In this document: positions 3,635-11,424 of the stretch, piece after piece
How positions within the stretch are numbered: the stretch's first letter is position 1
How the letters are laid out: every line of letters begins with the position of its first letter
DNA from: Streptomyces sp. AC555_RSS877
Lineage (GTDB): Bacteria; Actinomycetota; Actinomycetes; Streptomycetales; Streptomycetaceae
Reading direction: 5' to 3'
NCBI RefSeq assembly: GCF_019049245.1
Contig: NZ_JAGMUK010000221.1
Coordinates: forward strand, 192,607 to 256,606
Length of the DNA stretch: 64,000 nt
Position numbers and translations under genes: made by a program
Notes under the pieces: generated by a model
Seen by the model: the letters and a program-made list of their open reading frames with translations, nothing else
Databases searched by the model: none
Told to the model about the DNA's origin: nothing

Positions 3635-5005
3635 CTACAGCACCCCCGCCCCCGTCGTCGTCGCCAGCGACGTCAGCAGGTTCTTCGCCGACGGCTCCAG
3701 CCCCGCCGTGAGCGACGGCGTCCAGTTCACCGTCGTCTTCAGCTTCTTCGAGTTCGCGGCGTTGTACGCGGCGACGACATCCGTCGCCGTGCCGTTGACG
3801 AGGTTGCCGCCGCCCGCGACCGAACCCGTGCCGTCGCCGCTGAGCAGCTTGGCGACCTTGCCGCCGGCCGGCACCGTCCAGTAGTTGTTCTCCGCGACGA
3901 CCTGAGCCTTGGCGCGGGAGTCGATGCTGTACTTCGGCGCGTAGCCGTTCAGCGTCGTCGTGTCGTAGACGTTGTTGTAGATGTGGATCTGGCCGATGCG
4001 GGCCAGCGGGGCCCGCTGGGTGATGCCCTTCCACACGTTGTGGTGGATGGAGACACGCAGCTTGCCGACGCTGTCGGTGTCGCTGCTGCCGATCAGCATC
4101 GTCTTGTCGTGGTTGGTGAACTGGTTGCGCTCGACGGTCACCAGGTCCGAGCCGTTGGTGATGTCGAGGGCGCCGTCGTGGATCTGGTACTTCCGGCCGA
4201 AGTACGTCTTCTCCGCACTGTCGAAGAACGGCGCGTCGGTGAAGGTGTTGTGGTCGGCCCAGACGTGGGTCGCCCCGCGCAGGGTGACGGAGTCGTAGTT
4301 GGAGTTCCACTCGCCCGCCGAGCCGTCGGTCGGGTCCCATTGCGGGAAGCAGTCCTCGGTGGCGGCGAAGGTGAGGTTGCGGATGATGACGTTGTCGACG
4401 CTCTTGACCTGGAGACTGCCGCCGGTGATGCCGGCCTTGGTGCCGGGGACGCCGACGAGCGTCGTGTTGGCGGGCACCTTGAAGACGATGTTCTTCGCCT
4501 GCTTGGCCTGGGCGGCGGCGCGGGCGCTCTCCTGGGTGCCGGAGGGCAGCTTCGAGGTGCCGTACGTCGCCGGGTCGAACGCCTTCAGATAGGCCGACAG
4601 CGAGTAGCCGGTGCCCGACGCGTAGTCCGCGCAGGTCAGTTTCTTGCCCGCGGCGTCGGTGTTGGCGTCGATCGTGCCCTTGACCTTGATGATCCGCGGC
4701 GTGGTGTCGGAGGCGGAACCGAGCGCCTTCACTAATTCGGCGCGGGTGGAGACGGTGAAGGTGTGCGCGGAGTCGGCCTTCGCGCCACCGGTCGTGCCGG
4801 TGCCGGAGGCCGCCCAGCCGTTCTTGGCGGCGAGCGACTGGTGGTACAGGTCCACGGCATCGGCGTTCGCGTTCATCACGAAGACACCGGCGCCGGCCCC
4901 GGCGGCCAGGGCGGCGACGGAGACGACGAGGATGCGCCGCGAGCGGAGGGACCGGCGGTGGGAGGGTGCTGCCACGGAGGAGTCCTTACGTGGGTGTGTG
5001 CGCAT
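3635..5005 (-). CDS. Secreted pectate lyase, polysaccharide lyase family 1
   Basis: The 456-residue product has a long actinobacterial signal peptide: a basic N-terminus, hydrophobic ILVVSVAALAAGAGAG, and probable cleavage near residue 50 after NADA. The body is a right-handed beta-helix with PL1 signatures: HVWADHNTF, DGALDITNGSDLVTVE, HDKTMLIGSSD and HHNVWKGITQRAPLAR, where the last arginine matches the catalytic Arg of pectate lyases. The expected reaction is eliminative cleavage of polygalacturonate outside the cell, supporting use of plant debris. It stands alone, convergent with the gene at 3055. Confidence 0.92.
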   Translation of the reverse strand: MRTHPRKDSSVAAPSHRRSLRSRRILVVSVAALAAGAGAGVFVMNANADAVDLYHQSLAAKNGWAASGTGTTGGAKADSAHTFTVSTRAELVKALGSASDTTPRIIKVKGTIDANTDAAGKKLTCADYASGTGYSLSAYLKAFDPATYGTSKLPSGTQESARAAAQAKQAKNIVFKVPANTTLVGVPGTKAGITGGSLQVKSVDNVIIRNLTFAATEDCFPQWDPTDGSAGEWNSNYDSVTLRGATHVWADHNTFTDAPFFDSAEKTYFGRKYQIHDGALDITNGSDLVTVERNQFTNHDKTMLIGSSDTDSVGKLRVSIHHNVWKGITQRAPLARIGQIHIYNNVYDTTTLNGYAPKYSIDSRAKAQVVAENNYWTVPAGGKVAKLLSGDGTGSVAGGGNLVNGTATDVVAAYNAANSKKLKTTVNWTPSLTAGLEPSAKNLLTSLATTTGAGVL

Positions 5006-5161: not shown

Positions 5162-6745
5162 CTACCTCCGCCCGCCCCCGAAGCCGCCCTCCGGTGCCTC
5201 CCCCGCCGTCACCGTCGCGAGCTCCTCCGCCGAGCCGAGGTCGCCCGACGTCGCCAGACCGCCCGTGCTCGCGCCGGACGCCGAGCCGCCGGAGTGGATC
5301 CGGTACTCCTCGCCGCTGCTGACCGCGGCGGAGGAGAAGACGACGTTCTGGATCGCCTTCGAGGTGACGTACGTCGCCACCACCTTGCCGTCGGCGTCCA
5401 CCACGTGCAGCGTCGTACCCGCATCGACCGTCGTGTCGAGCGTCGCCGACACCCAGCCCTGCCCGGACTCGGTGTCGGGGGCGACGGCCATGCCCGCGCT
5501 CCCGGCGGCCATCACCACCCCGCCGCTGACGGTGAAGCTGCCGTTGACGTCGAGTGCGCCGTTGCCGCCCTGTTCGGGGCCGTTGACGACGAGGGTGCCG
5601 CCGGTGATCTCGGCGGTGCCGTTGGAGTCGAAGCCGTCGCCGTCGGCGTTGATGACCAGGGTGCCGCCGGTGACCTTCAGGGTGAAGTCCCCCGCGGGCT
5701 CGCCCCCGCCGCCGCCCGGGCCGCGGCCTGCGCCGCCGCTCTCCTCCGTCGTCGTACCGCCGGACGCGTTCACCCCGTCGTCGGAGGAGGTGATCTCCGT
5801 CGAGCCGCCGGCGACCGTGATGTCCTTGCCCTCCAGGCCCTCGTTGGACCGCGTGAGCTTCACCGTGCCGCCGTCGACGACCAGATCGCCCTCGGCGTGC
5901 ACGCCGTCGTCGCCGGCGGCGATCGTCACCGCGGCCCCGCCCAGGTGCACCGCCGCGTCGCTGTGCACGCCGTCGGCGGAGGAGTCGACGGCGACGGTGC
6001 CGTGCTCCAGGACGGTGATGACGCCCGACTTCAGTCCGTGCGCGGAGCTGTCGTCGGCGGCCTCGCTGTGCACGTCCAGGGAAACGCCGCCGGTGACGAC
6101 GAGGTCGGTGGCCGCGTCGACGCCGTCGCCCGTGGAGGTCACCTCGACCGTGCCGCCGTCGACGGCGACGTAACCGGCATCCGCCTTCTCGGTGTTGTCG
6201 GCCTTGAGTCCGTCGCCCTCGGCGGTCACGGCGAGGTCGACGCCCCTGACCGACAGGTTCACCACCCGACCGCCCAAGAGCATGTCGAGGTGTGCGCGCA
6301 GGGCGTCCTCGTCGGTGTAGGCGGAGTCGAGGCGAAGGCTGCGCGTGCGGTGCCGGGCGAACAGGCGGGGGTGGTCACCGAGGTACATCGTGCCGACGAT
6401 CAGCAGGGTCAGCGCGGTGGTCAGCACGGTCGCGTGTTGCGGCAGTCCGCCGAGCAGTCCGATCGCCAGGGCGGAGAAGTAGTACGCGATCTCGTGCTGG
6501 GCGATCTCGTACGACCGCAACCGGATGATCGACAGCACCCCGAACAGGCCCATGCCCAAGCCGATCCCGACCGACGTGGAACTGAGCGTCATCGCCACGG
6601 AGAGCACGCCGACGTTGACACCGAGGAACGCGGCGACGAGGTCCCGGCGGTGATGACGCGGGAAGAAGACGCCGAAGGTGAGTACGGAGACTGCGACGAG
6701 GTCGCAGGCGACCAACACCAGTTGGTTCACGGCCGTTGAGGTCAT
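5162..6745 (-). CDS. DUF4956 membrane domain fused to the C-terminal part of a Cthe_2159-type beta-helix protein
   Basis: Chimeric 527-residue protein. Residues 1-130 carry about five membrane segments and the DUF4956 core (GLFGVLSIIRLRSYEI, YYFSALAIGLLGG). The usual cytoplasmic tail (LDSAYTDEDALRAHLDMLLG) runs to about residue 168 and then changes, within LSVRGVDLAVTAEGDG, into the repetitive Gly/Asp beta-helix typical of carbohydrate-binding domain (Cthe_2159) proteins. The DUF4956 C-terminal strand pair and both the signal peptide and first half of a normal Cthe_2159 protein are missing. In related genomes (from memory) the two are separate neighbours, often beside a VTC-type polyphosphate polymerase. 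A fusion by deletion is inferred. The junction is near base 6250. Confidence 0.85.
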   Translation of the reverse strand: MTSTAVNQLVLVACDLVAVSVLTFGVFFPRHHRRDLVAAFLGVNVGVLSVAMTLSSTSVGIGLGMGLFGVLSIIRLRSYEIAQHEIAYYFSALAIGLLGGLPQHATVLTTALTLLIVGTMYLGDHPRLFARHRTRSLRLDSAYTDEDALRAHLDMLLGGRVVNLSVRGVDLAVTAEGDGLKADNTEKADAGYVAVDGGTVEVTSTGDGVDAATDLVVTGGVSLDVHSEAADDSSAHGLKSGVITVLEHGTVAVDSSADGVHSDAAVHLGGAAVTIAAGDDGVHAEGDLVVDGGTVKLTRSNEGLEGKDITVAGGSTEITSSDDGVNASGGTTTEESGGAGRGPGGGGGEPAGDFTLKVTGGTLVINADGDGFDSNGTAEITGGTLVVNGPEQGGNGALDVNGSFTVSGGVVMAAGSAGMAVAPDTESGQGWVSATLDTTVDAGTTLHVVDADGKVVATYVTSKAIQNVVFSSAAVSSGEEYRIHSGGSASGASTGGLATSGDLGSAEELATVTAGEAPEGGFGGGRR

Positions 6746-6929
6746 GGGACGACAGTCGGGGAGTCGTCTGTGAAGCGTCTTTGAGCTGCCTTAAATGGGC
6801 GTTCCCCATGTCCAGCGTCACAGGCTCATCGCGACTTGCTGAGAGATTTCCGCTTTTTCGTGATTTTCCGCTTTTGCCACGGCAGCGAGTGGTTACGCGT
6901 AAGGAACGACAGAAGCAAGGAGAGCGCCA
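6746..6929. other. Divergent intergenic region between the fusion gene and the PRC-barrel gene
   Basis: This 184-base spacer is less GC-rich than its surroundings in the middle (about 6840-6900, with TTTCCGCTTTTTCGTG and TTTTCCGCTTTTGCC as near-repeats). It must hold both divergent promoters. No convincing consensus boxes could be assigned. Confidence 0.5.
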
Positions 6930-7751
6930 ATGATCACTCGCGACCAGATTGCCACCGTTCTGGATCATCCCGTCCACGACGCGGAGGGCGTCAAGATCGG
7001 TGACGCCAAGCACGTCTTCTTCGACGATGTGACCGGTGAGCCCGAATGGGTGAGCGTGAGGACCGGCCTGTTCGGGACCAGCGAGTCGTTCGTGCCGATC
7101 CACGACGGGACAGTGGTGGAGGACCACTTGGAGGTGCCCTACGCCAGGGACACGGTCAAGGACGCGCCGAACGTCGACGTCGACGCCGGCGGACACCTGT
7201 CCGAACAGGAAGAGCACCGCCTCTACGAGCACTACGGCATCGACTGGGACACCGCTTGGCAACAGGCCAACCAGCCCCCCGAAGGCGGCCGGGCACGCCT
7301 CGGCACCGACACCACCGGGCAGGACATGACCGCTACCGGGACGCGGCCTGGAGGCGACGACGCGATGACGCGCTCCGAGGAGCAGATGCACGTCGGTGTC
7401 GAACGCCGAGAGACCGGCCGGGCGCGCCTGCGCAAGTACGTGGTCACCGAGGAGGTCCAGCGGACCGTTCCCGTGCGCCACGAAGAAGTCCGCGTCGAGC
7501 ACGAGCCGATCACCGACGCCAACCGGGACGCGGCCATGTCCGGCCCCGACATCACCGAGGCCGAGCACGAGGTGATCCTCCACGAGGAGCGCCCCGTCGT
7601 GGAGACGGAGGCCGTCCCCGTCGAACGCGTCCGGCTGAGCACCGAGGAGCGTACCGAGGAGGAAACCGTTCATGGCGAGGTCCGCAAGGAGCGGATCGAG
7701 ACCGATCGCACCGACGAGACCGAGACCGAGACCGGCCAGGGTGACCGATGA
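6930..7751 (+). CDS. PRC-barrel and DUF2382 domain protein
   Basis: The 273-residue soluble protein has an N-terminal PRC-barrel (about residues 1-100, beginning ITRDQIATVLDHPVHDAEG) and a C-terminal DUF2382 domain (from about residue 150: HVGVERRETGRARLRKYVV, then VEHEPI and EVILHEERPVVETEAVPVE), separated by a hydrophilic linker. The tail is very acidic and repetitive (TDETETETGQGDR). Proteins of this build are common in actinobacteria and are often linked with envelope or osmotic stress responses, but the biochemical role is unknown. An AAGGAG ribosome binding site precedes the ATG. Confidence 0.88.
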   Translation: MITRDQIATVLDHPVHDAEGVKIGDAKHVFFDDVTGEPEWVSVRTGLFGTSESFVPIHDGTVVEDHLEVPYARDTVKDAPNVDVDAGGHLSEQEEHRLYEHYGIDWDTAWQQANQPPEGGRARLGTDTTGQDMTATGTRPGGDDAMTRSEEQMHVGVERRETGRARLRKYVVTEEVQRTVPVRHEEVRVEHEPITDANRDAAMSGPDITEAEHEVILHEERPVVETEAVPVERVRLSTEERTEEETVHGEVRKERIETDRTDETETETGQGDR

Positions 7752-7832
7752 CCGGATCCTCGTGGACCCGCCGGACCCACCCGGACACGCACTGCGGGAT
7801 CTTCTCGTTGATCAGCGCATGAGGAGGACGTC

Positions 7833-8102
7833 ATGGGCACCATCAGCCAGCCCCTCACCGACGAAAGCATCAAGGTCCGCCAGCTCAGCCACTACCAGTT
7901 CAGCTGGGTCGCCGGCGACGCAGGCGCACGCGGCACGTTCACCCTGCAGCTCGTTCTCGACGAGGGCGCCTGGGAGGAAGTGCTGACCATCGACGTCGAC
8001 GACGCCGATGTCCTGGACGACCTGCTGAAGACCACCGGCACCGTCCACTACGACGTCGGTCGCCGCACCCTGATCTTCGGCGTCACCCGCGTCGCCGGCT
8101 AG
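7833..8102 (+). CDS. Small conserved hypothetical protein, 89 aa
   Basis: An 89-residue acidic protein (MGTISQPLTDESIKVRQLS) predicted to be mostly beta strand, with no membrane segment or signal peptide. A strong GAGGAGG ribosome binding site lies 6-7 bases before the ATG. It is 81 bases downstream of the PRC-barrel gene on the same strand, so co-transcription is plausible and would suggest a role in the same stress response. The family was not recognised. Confidence 0.75.
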   Translation: MGTISQPLTDESIKVRQLSHYQFSWVAGDAGARGTFTLQLVLDEGAWEEVLTIDVDDADVLDDLLKTTGTVHYDVGRRTLIFGVTRVAG

Positions 8103-8214
8103 ACCAGGCTTAGCACCCGCCCTGCCCCTCCACCTGCGCGGACACACCCCCGCCCCCTGATAGCATCCGGCCACTTGTGCGAGGGCGGGGGCCCTCGTGG
8201 GGAGGGAACTTCAC

Positions 8215-11200
8215 GTGGGCAGACACGCCCCGAGACGGGGCGGTCGTGCCGCTCTCGTCTCCGTGCTCGCGGTCGCCGTGGCGGCCGGATCCATCACCCT
8301 GTTCTCCGGTACGGAGGACGGCGGCGGCGCGGCGCAGGCCGCCACCACGGCCGCGGCGGCCGGAACCACCGAGATCGTCCTGGACGATCCGCGCCTTGAG
8401 CTGCGGCGCGCCGAGCGGCTGCTGGCGGCGGGCGAGACCGGCTTCCTGCACCGCCAGGCGGGGGCCGCCGGCCTGTTCTGGACGGACTACGAGGACGGCA
8501 GCACCGTCACCGTCGAGGGACCGTCCGGGGTCTACTCGCCGACCACCACCAGCTGCTACGACGAGCAAAGGCGCTGTGCCTCGGGCGTGTTCGGGCAGGC
8601 CGCCGACACGGTGGCGCTGCCGAACAGGACCGACGGCGGCGACCCCGTGTCGCTGTGGAGCCCGGACGGCGGCGCCCTGCGGACCCTGGACCTGAGCCAG
8701 TCGGCCGACCGCGTGGGCACGTACGGCGAGACCACCGTCACCGTCGAGTACAACGGCGTCGTCGACGGCACCGAACTGGACGGACACGTGCTGCACCTGG
8801 TCGACCTCGTCGACGGCAAGCAGCGAGACCGCCTGGTCACCGGCTACCCGGCCGACGTGTTCTGGGAGTGGAACTTCGCGCGCACCGGCGACGAGAACGG
8901 CGCCCTGCTGACCCACCCCGCCCGCGACGAGAACGGCGCCCTCACGTCGTACACCGTCGGCTACCTCGACTTCGCCACCGCGCGGCTCACCCCGGTCTTC
9001 ACCGGTCTGTCCAAGGAGACGGTGCCGGAGGTCGTGCTGAGCGACGACCGCGTCGGCTGGTACACGCAGGCCGCCGGTCTGCACCTCAAGCCGCGCACCG
9101 ACCTCGCCGCCGAGGAGACGGTCCCGGTGGCCGGGGAGGAGACCACCGTCTCCCCCGTTCCCGTCCTCGTCGGTGACTGGCTGGTCCTGACCGGCGCCCC
9201 CGGCGTCAAGGCCGTCTCCCTGGCCGACGGCACCACCAAGACCCTGCTGCCCGGGTCGTACGGCACCCCGCTGGCCACCCCGGACGGCGGCGCCCTCGTC
9301 ACCGGCGGCACCACCACGACCGACTGGTGGGTGCAGCGCGTGAGCCTCGGCGCCGACGGCACCCCGCAGGTGGCGAAGCTGACCAAGGTCCCTCCGTACG
9401 AGAACAAGAAGACCGGGCTCGCGCTCAGCCGCGGCAGCCTGCGCGTCGCGGAGGACACCACGAGCAGCACCTCGGACACCACGTCCGTCCGCAGGCTCAC
9501 CACCAACGGCAGCACCCTGCTGACCGCGTCCGCCGCCACGGAGAGCAGTTCGGTCAGCCCGACGTGCCCGTACCCGAACACCACCTGCTCGGCGATGTGG
9601 GGCAACTTCGACGGCACCGACCCCGAGGACGTCTACCTCGACACGTTCTACGACGGCGACGAGGGCGGCAGCGGCCTGGAGAACGCGGACCGGCTGGTCT
9701 CCATCGGCTACAACCCCCTGTCGTTCTTCGGCACCACGGGCGGCTCGATCGTCGACGTCTCCGACGACTACGCCGTCTACAACTCGGGCGGCTCCGCCCC
9801 GGCGCAGTACGTCGGCGAGTTCGGCTACGCGCAGAAGCTGAAGCGCTCGGTGCGCGCCGCCGCCCTGAACGGCTCCACGCTCTGGAGCGCCGCCGGCACC
9901 GGCAGGCTCACCTCCTACAGCCTCACCGAGGACAAGACCCTCGCCACGCTGACGGTCCCCTCGCTCGCCTGTACGCCGAGCGAGCTCCAGGCGGCGGGCC
10001 GCTGGGTGTACTGGTCCTGCGGGACGGCCTCGGCGGGCGTCTACGACACCAAGGCCGGTACGTCCCGCGCCGTGCAGCCCGGTGACGTGCTGCTCGGCGA
10101 CGGCTTCACCGTCCGCCACGACCACGACGCCGACCGGCTGGTCCTCACCGACGCGGCCACCGGCACCACCCGCGTGATCGCCTCCGGCCTGCCGGACAGC
10201 GGCCTCGCGGTGGACCGCCGCTACCGCTGGACGGTGGACGAGTACACGGGCCTGGTCGCCTGGTTCGACTCGTTCGAGCAGACGCACGTGGCCACCACCG
10301 GCGTCACGCCGTCCACGCCGACGGCCTTCTCCACGGAGACCGAGGGCATCATGGAGCCGCCCTCGGCGGAGCCGTGGAGCGGTCACTGGCTGCTCTCCCG
10401 CCCCGTCACCTCCTGGTCCCTCACCCTCACCTCGGTGCAGAGCGGCGCGAGCGGCAGGGCGACCCGCACGATCACCGGCGGTGCGACCTCGGCCTGGGTG
10501 TCGGCGACCTGGAACGGCAGGACGGCGAGCGGGGGTTACTTCCCCAACGGCGCGTTCACGTGGACGCTGAACGCGACCGGCCTGGGCACCTCGACCCCGG
10601 CCACGGTGAAGTCCGGAGAGGGGTTCGTCCTCCGGGGCGCGCCCGCACTCCGCGACTTCACCAGCCCCGACGGCCCGGACGGCAGGGGCGACCTGCTCAC
10701 CCTCAACGCCTCCGGCGGCCTGACCTTCCACAGCGGCACCGGGACCGGAAAATTCGGCGAGAAGACCACCGGCACCGGCTGGCCGACGACCGCGAGGCTC
10801 GTGCCCTTCGGCGACCTCAGCGGCGACCGCTGCAACGACGTCCTGGTCCGCCTGAGCAGCGGCGCCCTGCGCCTGTACAAGCCGGGCTGCAACGCGGCGG
10901 TCAGGCCGTCGACGTCGTACACGACGCTGTCGACCGGCGGCTGGACCCAGTACGACGTCCTGACCTCCCCCGGTGACGTCAGCGGCGACGGCCGCCCGGA
11001 CCTGATCGCCCGCAACACGTCCACCGGGACGGTCTACCTCTACAAGGGCACCAGCACCGGCAAGCTGTCCGCCCGCGTGAAGCTCTACGACAACTGGAAG
11101 ACGTACAAGAAGATCGTGGGCGTCGGCGACCTCAACGGCGACGGCATCGGCGACCTGCTCGCCCAGGACAAGGCGAACACCCTGTACCGCTACTACGGCA

Positions 11201-11424
11201 AGGGCAACGGCACCTTCGGCGCCCGCACCCAGCTGTTCGCGAACTGGGGCGGCTCGTACAACGTGATCGTCGGCGTCGGCGACATCACCGACGACGGCAA
11301 GGCCGACATCGTCTCCCGCGACAGCAGCGGCAACCTGTTCCGCAACAGCGGGGACGGCAAGGGGTCGTTCGGGGCGCGGGCGACGATCGCCACCGGCTGG
11401 AGCGGCTACAAGTCGCTTTCGTGA
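8215..11424 (+). CDS. Large exported beta-propeller-like protein with FG-GAP/VCBS repeats
   Basis: The 1069-residue product starts at GTG 8215, about 8 bases after GGGAGGGAA; GTG 8197 would add six residues but lacks a good site. It has a signal peptide (basic start, then AALVSVLAVAVAAGSITLF). The middle is an Ala/Gly/Thr-rich beta-propeller-like region. The last 250 residues contain at least four FG-GAP/VCBS-type calcium-binding repeats with DxDGxxD-like loops (GDVSGDGRPDLIAR, GDLNGDGIGDLLAQ, GDITDDGKADIVSR). Such proteins are secreted or surface-held in Streptomyces. Substrate or partner unknown. A hairpin follows the stop. Confidence 0.85.
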   Translation: MGRHAPRRGGRAALVSVLAVAVAAGSITLFSGTEDGGGAAQAATTAAAAGTTEIVLDDPRLELRRAERLLAAGETGFLHRQAGAAGLFWTDYEDGSTVTVEGPSGVYSPTTTSCYDEQRRCASGVFGQAADTVALPNRTDGGDPVSLWSPDGGALRTLDLSQSADRVGTYGETTVTVEYNGVVDGTELDGHVLHLVDLVDGKQRDRLVTGYPADVFWEWNFARTGDENGALLTHPARDENGALTSYTVGYLDFATARLTPVFTGLSKETVPEVVLSDDRVGWYTQAAGLHLKPRTDLAAEETVPVAGEETTVSPVPVLVGDWLVLTGAPGVKAVSLADGTTKTLLPGSYGTPLATPDGGALVTGGTTTTDWWVQRVSLGADGTPQVAKLTKVPPYENKKTGLALSRGSLRVAEDTTSSTSDTTSVRRLTTNGSTLLTASAATESSSVSPTCPYPNTTCSAMWGNFDGTDPEDVYLDTFYDGDEGGSGLENADRLVSIGYNPLSFFGTTGGSIVDVSDDYAVYNSGGSAPAQYVGEFGYAQKLKRSVRAAALNGSTLWSAAGTGRLTSYSLTEDKTLATLTVPSLACTPSELQAAGRWVYWSCGTASAGVYDTKAGTSRAVQPGDVLLGDGFTVRHDHDADRLVLTDAATGTTRVIASGLPDSGLAVDRRYRWTVDEYTGLVAWFDSFEQTHVATTGVTPSTPTAFSTETEGIMEPPSAEPWSGHWLLSRPVTSWSLTLTSVQSGASGRATRTITGGATSAWVSATWNGRTASGGYFPNGAFTWTLNATGLGTSTPATVKSGEGFVLRGAPALRDFTSPDGPDGRGDLLTLNASGGLTFHSGTGTGKFGEKTTGTGWPTTARLVPFGDLSGDRCNDVLVRLSSGALRLYKPGCNAAVRPSTSYTTLSTGGWTQYDVLTSPGDVSGDGRPDLIARNTSTGTVYLYKGTSTGKLSARVKLYDNWKTYKKIVGVGDLNGDGIGDLLAQDKANTLYRYYGKGNGTFGARTQLFANWGGSYNVIVGVGDITDDGKADIVSRDSSGNLFRNSGDGKGSFGARATIATGWSGYKSLS

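Follow-up and report, generated by a model that had tools for sequence, protein, structure and literature searches.

An in-frame DUF4956 and Cthe_2159 fusion in a Streptomyces genome, most likely the product of a lineage-specific deletion within a three-gene operon

How did one reading frame of Streptomyces sp. AC555_RSS877 come to join most of a DUF4956 membrane protein to half of a Cthe_2159-type beta-helix protein, and is the product of this frame still in use? The frame lies within a stretch of 64,000 nucleotides, here called the window, and its features are listed together with those of its surroundings in Table 1.

Table 1. Features of the fused gene and its surroundings (window positions)
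Feature	Position	Strand	Remarks
Pectate lyase (PF00544), downstream	3635..5005	minus	syntenic in L009 and L010; locus marker
Fused ORF, 527 aa	5162..6745	minus	ATG at 6745, stop at 5162
Cthe_2159-type beta-helix C-terminal part, without signal peptide or first turns	5162..6231	minus	Pfam PF14262, profile 139-262
Deletion joint (most likely origin)	6232..6234	minus	homology switch at gene base 512-515 against intact relatives
DUF4956 part, about residues 1-170 (five model helices and start of C-terminal soluble domain)	6235..6745	minus	Pfam PF16316
Remaining copies of the repeats upstream of the operon (TTTAAGG, CTCAAAG, CTTCACAG)	6768..6795	minus	homology to L010 ends at 6794
1.3-kb stretch with PRC-barrel/DUF2382 gene (6930-7751)	6795..8117	plus	absent from syntenic L009 and L010; abuts the upstream region of the fused gene

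The fused frame and its joint

The fusion of DUF4956 and Cthe_2159 in the sequence is real. The predicted protein matched the family profiles of both DUF4956 (PF16316) and Cthe_2159 (PF14262), the latter over the C-terminal part of the profile. A first-pass annotation made from the letters of the DNA had assigned residues 1-168 to DUF4956 and the protein from about residue 170 onward to the C-terminal part of a Cthe_2159-type protein. Pfam bore out both assignments, placing DUF4956 at residues 15-171 (profile positions 1-158 of 169; score 168.8 bits, cut-off 30.6) and the best Cthe_2159 stretch at residues 164-281 (profile positions 139-262 of 262; score 96.1 bits, cut-off 25.8). The two parts were 82-85% and 86-90% identical to the DUF4956 and Cthe_2159 proteins, respectively, of two intact Streptomyces loci, L009 (sp. 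MMG1533) and L010 (sp. V4I2).

Both partners had also been described as truncated, and comparison with L010 agreed: about 170 of 203 DUF4956 residues were kept and the last 33 or so were gone, and about 350 of 601 Cthe_2159 residues were kept while about 250 N-terminal residues, signal included, were gone. The proposed loss of the secretion signal likewise held, for the hydrophobic N-terminus of the L010 Cthe_2159 protein, with an LAGC motif that we take to be a lipobox, falls within the part lost from the fused gene. A complete Cthe_2159 N-terminal half with its secretion signal was not found in the window, where the L010 N-terminal query gave a weak match of 25% identity to the retained repeats.

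BLASTN of the fused gene against intact relatives returned two separate blocks that met at gene base 512-515. The split had been estimated near base 6250 with the frame kept. A single in-frame ORF upheld the second point, but the joint itself lies at 6232-6234, about 16 bases from the estimate. The bases common to both sides of the joint were TCG with L006 as a guide and none with L009, and the number of missing bases, which follows the alignment used, was 1603 against L009 and 1663 against L006. This stretch of about 1.6 kb, missing in frame, comprises the DUF4956 tail, the entire gene of a probable, VTC-type polyphosphate polymerase, and the signal and other N-terminal residues, about 250 in all, of the beta-helix lipoprotein. 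Two separate genes in relatives and a deletion at the joint, as the first-pass annotation had expected, were thus both found, with VTC in the missing stretch.

The intact operon in relatives

We scanned named genomes for this locus and obtained 31 loci. The gene order DUF4956 - VTC - Cthe_2159 was present in 25 of them, one of which (L030) is cut inside the Cthe_2159 gene by a contig end, and likewise in genome G007. The first-pass statement that relatives carry two separate genes with a VTC polyphosphate polymerase nearby could therefore be made more precise, as VTC sits between the two in these 25 loci. The identification of the middle gene as VTC is based on a PF09359 match at this place in G007 and on the similarity between that gene and the ones found in the middle of the other loci. 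The remaining six loci were one with a different deletion (L024, see below) and five from Ruminococcus (L032-L034, L036, L037) that have the beta-helix; DUF4956 or VTC partners were not detected in the covered sequence of these five at E 1e-8 with the Streptomyces DUF4956 and VTC proteins as queries, a search that distant partners would escape.

The operon of L010 and L009 shares with the window its genes, the pectate lyase neighbour and the start region. It differs in consisting of three separate genes, whereas the window is without VTC and the adjoining ends of DUF4956 and Cthe_2159. To either side of the locus L010 and the window were syntenic, with a DNA identity of 92-93% in the outer flanks, 89% in the lyase and the beta-helix part, and 85% in DUF4956.

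VTC was not detected elsewhere in the genome. Nothing in the assembly of the strain matched PF09359 at E <= 0.001; one loose candidate was scored and failed, and a short VTC fragment could be overlooked by such a search. The same search found VTC in G007, G018 and G003 as positive controls. No VTC match was obtained in the window either, including between the DUF4956 and the Cthe_2159 parts.

Accessory gene sets of cotH, PPP and DUF4956 have been described as adjoining Gram-positive pel clusters (PMC7112168). These sets resemble the Streptomyces operon in having DUF4956 beside a poly-phosphate polymerase. They differ in that, in the available text of that source, a CotH kinase is included, Cthe_2159 is not named, the genes are separate, and the hosts are streptococci, clostridia and bifidobacteria. 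Cthe_2159 itself is described as a beta-helix that binds cellulose and pectin (PMC6712302). In the accessible portions of the literature searched, no function was given for the Streptomyces DUF4956-VTC-Cthe_2159 operon, and the fusion was named nowhere (PMC7112168, PMC9210967, PMC6712302 and PMC10503014 were among the sources).

Occurrence of the joint in other genomes

We searched for the same joint in 40 relatives (E 1e-3), 391 genomes of the genus (E 1e-10) and 393 genomes family-wide (E 1e-60) and found it in none of them. These sets exclude the window's own genome (G000) and overlap one another as well as the set of 31 loci, so that the counts are not additive. Another draw from the genus, made up of nearly identical genomes, did not contain the joint either. 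An architecture shared by most Streptomyces homologues, which would have spoken against a fusion event, was therefore not observed, and a conserved fusion architecture was ruled out for the searched sets. The single match elsewhere that ran past the joint came from the genus search (G318, query residues 12-208, 41% identity) and was rejected as a second fusion because its DUF4956 gene ends normally, overlapping the start of VTC.

The Cthe_2159 part was detected at E <= 1e-60 in 16 of the 391 other genus genomes. In fifteen of these, a separate DUF4956 match lay on the contig of the Cthe_2159 part, 1.58-1.81 kb away from it, and the family-wide set at the same threshold added one new genome, G622, with both genes separate. 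Across the genus, DUF4956 alone or with VTC occurred more often than the operon of three genes.

The sixteenth genome (G255, locus L052) carries the deletion of Streptomyces sporangiiformans and agrees with L024 where the two were compared. In S. sporangiiformans NEAU-SSA 1 (L024:136-1274), the DUF4956 gene is interrupted at about codon 35, where it passes into the beta-helix gene in another frame. As in the window, a deletion joins DUF4956 to Cthe_2159 and VTC is gone from the locus; unlike in the window, the breakpoints are other ones, the frame is lost, the joint is close to a contig end, and a second, distant DUF4956 is kept together with VTC on contig C321 of that genome. Since the L024 junction lies 240 bases from the contig start, either a second genuine deletion or a faulty assembly may underlie it. 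In G366 only the tail of the beta-helix gene was seen, as a 117-aa frame matching residues 444-527 (L059:2594-2947). This tail, from which the VTC match of the genome is separated by about 97 kb, is probably a remnant of the operon. Together with the S. sporangiiformans deletion it indicates that the operon can be lost.

Upstream region and neighbouring genes

Upstream of DUF4956, relatives carry a phased array of CTCAAAG/CTTAAGG/CTCACAG-like repeats spaced 10-11 bases apart (window 6768-6800), which is perhaps an operator. The most distal repeat (TTCTCAA/TTCTTAA) was present in eight of nine aligned relatives, the exception being L024. It is missing from the window, in which the proximal copies are kept.

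Two neighbours of the fused gene are described here in their own right. The PRC-barrel/DUF2382 gene has a second copy, 73% identical, elsewhere in the window's genome. At 8197-11424 the window encodes a 1075-aa protein with C-terminal FG-GAP repeats, whose dN/dS was 0.69 against L009 (982 codons) and 0.38 against L010; this is perhaps a fast-evolving surface protein.

Constraint on both halves

No stop, frameshift or surplus of replacements was found in the fused gene. Its terminal-branch dN/dS (Nei-Gojobori) was 0.292 (95% 0.167-0.535) in the DUF4956 half and 0.295 (95% 0.150-0.527) in the beta-helix half, and the branches of L009 and L010 gave 0.307 and 0.187 for the former and 0.112 and 0.252 for the latter. 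At codons invariant in 18 other sequences, replacements had occurred at 0 of 97 in the DUF4956 half and at 1 of 154 in the beta-helix half, and intact relatives had no fewer; on an unconstrained branch 56.3 and 37.0 replacements, respectively, would be expected. If the fused gene has been free of constraint at all, this can have lasted no longer than about 5% of its branch, a bound which assumes no import of the DUF4956 half and which becomes 13% from the beta-helix half alone.

With no decay in either half, a long-dead pseudogene was ruled out. Unchanged constraint in both halves leaves three readings, namely that the deletion is very recent, that the assembly is in error, or that the product is still in use. 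For a deletion without use of the product, the limit of about 5% of the branch demands a very recent event.

Predicted product and topology

We predicted the structure of the fused protein from an alignment in which the window protein was combined with 18 DUF4956 and 5 beta-helix sequences to give 24 rows. The model had a mean pLDDT of 73.4 and a pTM of 0.53, with helices at 3-31, 35-55, 62-76, 83-100 and 107-123 and beta strands from residue 170 onward. Confidence was good at 191-320 (block-mean pLDDT 83-95) and low at 330-352, 416-428, 488-501 and 518-527. Around the joint it was mixed, with block means of 66 at 161-170, 87 at 171-180 and 64 at 181-190.

A simple hydropathy scan recovered four of the five model helices (all but 83-100) together with one segment within the beta-helix. 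Basic residues of the fused protein are located in loop 28-35 and also beyond the final helix. By the positive-inside rule and with five crossings, these would place the C-terminal part in the cytoplasm; with four crossings it would face outward. A beta-helix on the cytoplasmic side is plausible on the basis of the model.

Residues 166-219 matched Cthe_2159 of Clostridium thermocellum (4peu) in sequence with E 7.7e-05. A fold search with the model gave no match at E <= 0.001; 4phb ranked first (E 0.02) and 4peu fourth (E 0.1). The fused protein and the C. thermocellum protein (4peu, 4phb) are alike in belonging to the beta-helix family, of which the window keeps the C-terminal part and further repeats. 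The C. thermocellum protein, on the other hand, matches residues 50-303 of the L010 protein, an N-terminal part that is mostly lost from the window.

Origin of the fused frame

The three-gene operon is of a known kind, and the fused frame is most likely a damaged copy of it, specific to this lineage and born of a deletion, and not a novel type of protein. We consider it probable that about 1.6 kb was recently deleted from the operon, that the frame was kept by chance, and that the product is non-functional, so that the locus is a null allele. This reading is supported by the intact operon of relatives, the synteny with L010 and the lack of a VTC match in the genome, and also by the lost distal repeat upstream. 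Two halves as conserved as those of intact relatives are expected for a very recent event. What speaks against a recent null allele is that the frame was kept, for which the chance is 1 in 3, that dN/dS is 0.29 in both halves, and that the model of the half beta-helix still present has good confidence at 191-320.

The deletion probably arose through end joining, a process that fits the 0-3 bases common to the two sites. Lost with it would be the 3' end of DUF4956, the VTC-type polymerase gene in its entirety and a 5' portion of Cthe_2159, and the frame across the joint would have happened to stay open. If made, the product would be held in the membrane by the DUF4956 helices with half a beta-helix in the cytoplasm, and it would be without its enzyme partner, without the exported lipoprotein and presumably non-functional. 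The intact frame may then be a sign of recency and not of use.

It is possible, if doubtful, that the DUF4956 segment was recombined in from another Streptomyces lineage, in which case one boundary of the imported segment would be its joint to the beta-helix gene already in place; such an event would be compatible with the other readings. dS to L009 and L010 was higher in the DUF4956 half (0.34-0.38, window 6232-6794) than in the beta-helix half or in genes nearby (0.105-0.228). The trees of the two halves also placed the window differently, outside L009, L010 and L020 for DUF4956 and firmly with L009 and L010 for the beta-helix. However, the DUF4956 alignment has only 510 columns and a common clade with L009 and L010 was not rejected (AU p 0.126), the nearest DNA relative found for this half was no closer than 86%, and VTC dS between the intact L009 and L010 was also raised (0.36), indicating that the genes of the operon differ in divergence in any case. 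We also looked for a donor in which the PRC gene adjoins DUF4956. In none of 30 other genomes with a PRC match (E <= 1e-70) did a DUF4956 match from the genus search lie next to it, and the nearest were about 70 kb away (G059, G230, G372).

Selection for the fused protein as a chimera appears unlikely. The protein would be made and used, for instance with half a beta-helix anchored to the membrane and facing the cytoplasm, in keeping with the preserved frame, the unchanged purifying constraint and the predicted folding of the half beta-helix. Yet the VTC partner has been lost, the L010 beta-helix protein has a signal which the fused product does not have, the fusion occurs in no second genome searched, model confidence around the joint is mixed (66, 87, 64), and the upstream repeat array is clipped.

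An assembly or library error, in which the strain would have an intact operon and the contig would wrongly join points 1.6 kb apart, is quite unlikely. In favour of an error, the assembly is a draft of 243 contigs, neither half has a signal of decay, and another draft, that of S. sporangiiformans, has a similar joint near a contig end. Against an error, the joint is well inside its contig (fused gene at C163 about 197,771-199,351, with the window reaching 256,606), its sides have 0-3 bases in common, too few for an assembler collapse, and no VTC match was obtained at E 0.001 on other contigs, from which a short fragment might escape. That the fusion is a working new protein, whose DUF4956 helices present a formerly exported half beta-helix to the cytoplasm under purifying selection as in the parents, is very unlikely.

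Among a very recent deletion, an assembly error and a product in use, the very recent deletion leaving a null allele is the likeliest. The loss of VTC, together with the out-of-frame deletion that a second species has in this operon, points to loss of function. The locus is a caution that a deletion can yield a clean and well-conserved "domain fusion" which annotation would take as a two-domain protein. The strain, with its operon lost, and at least one other species would represent natural null strains in which the function of the operon could be asked.
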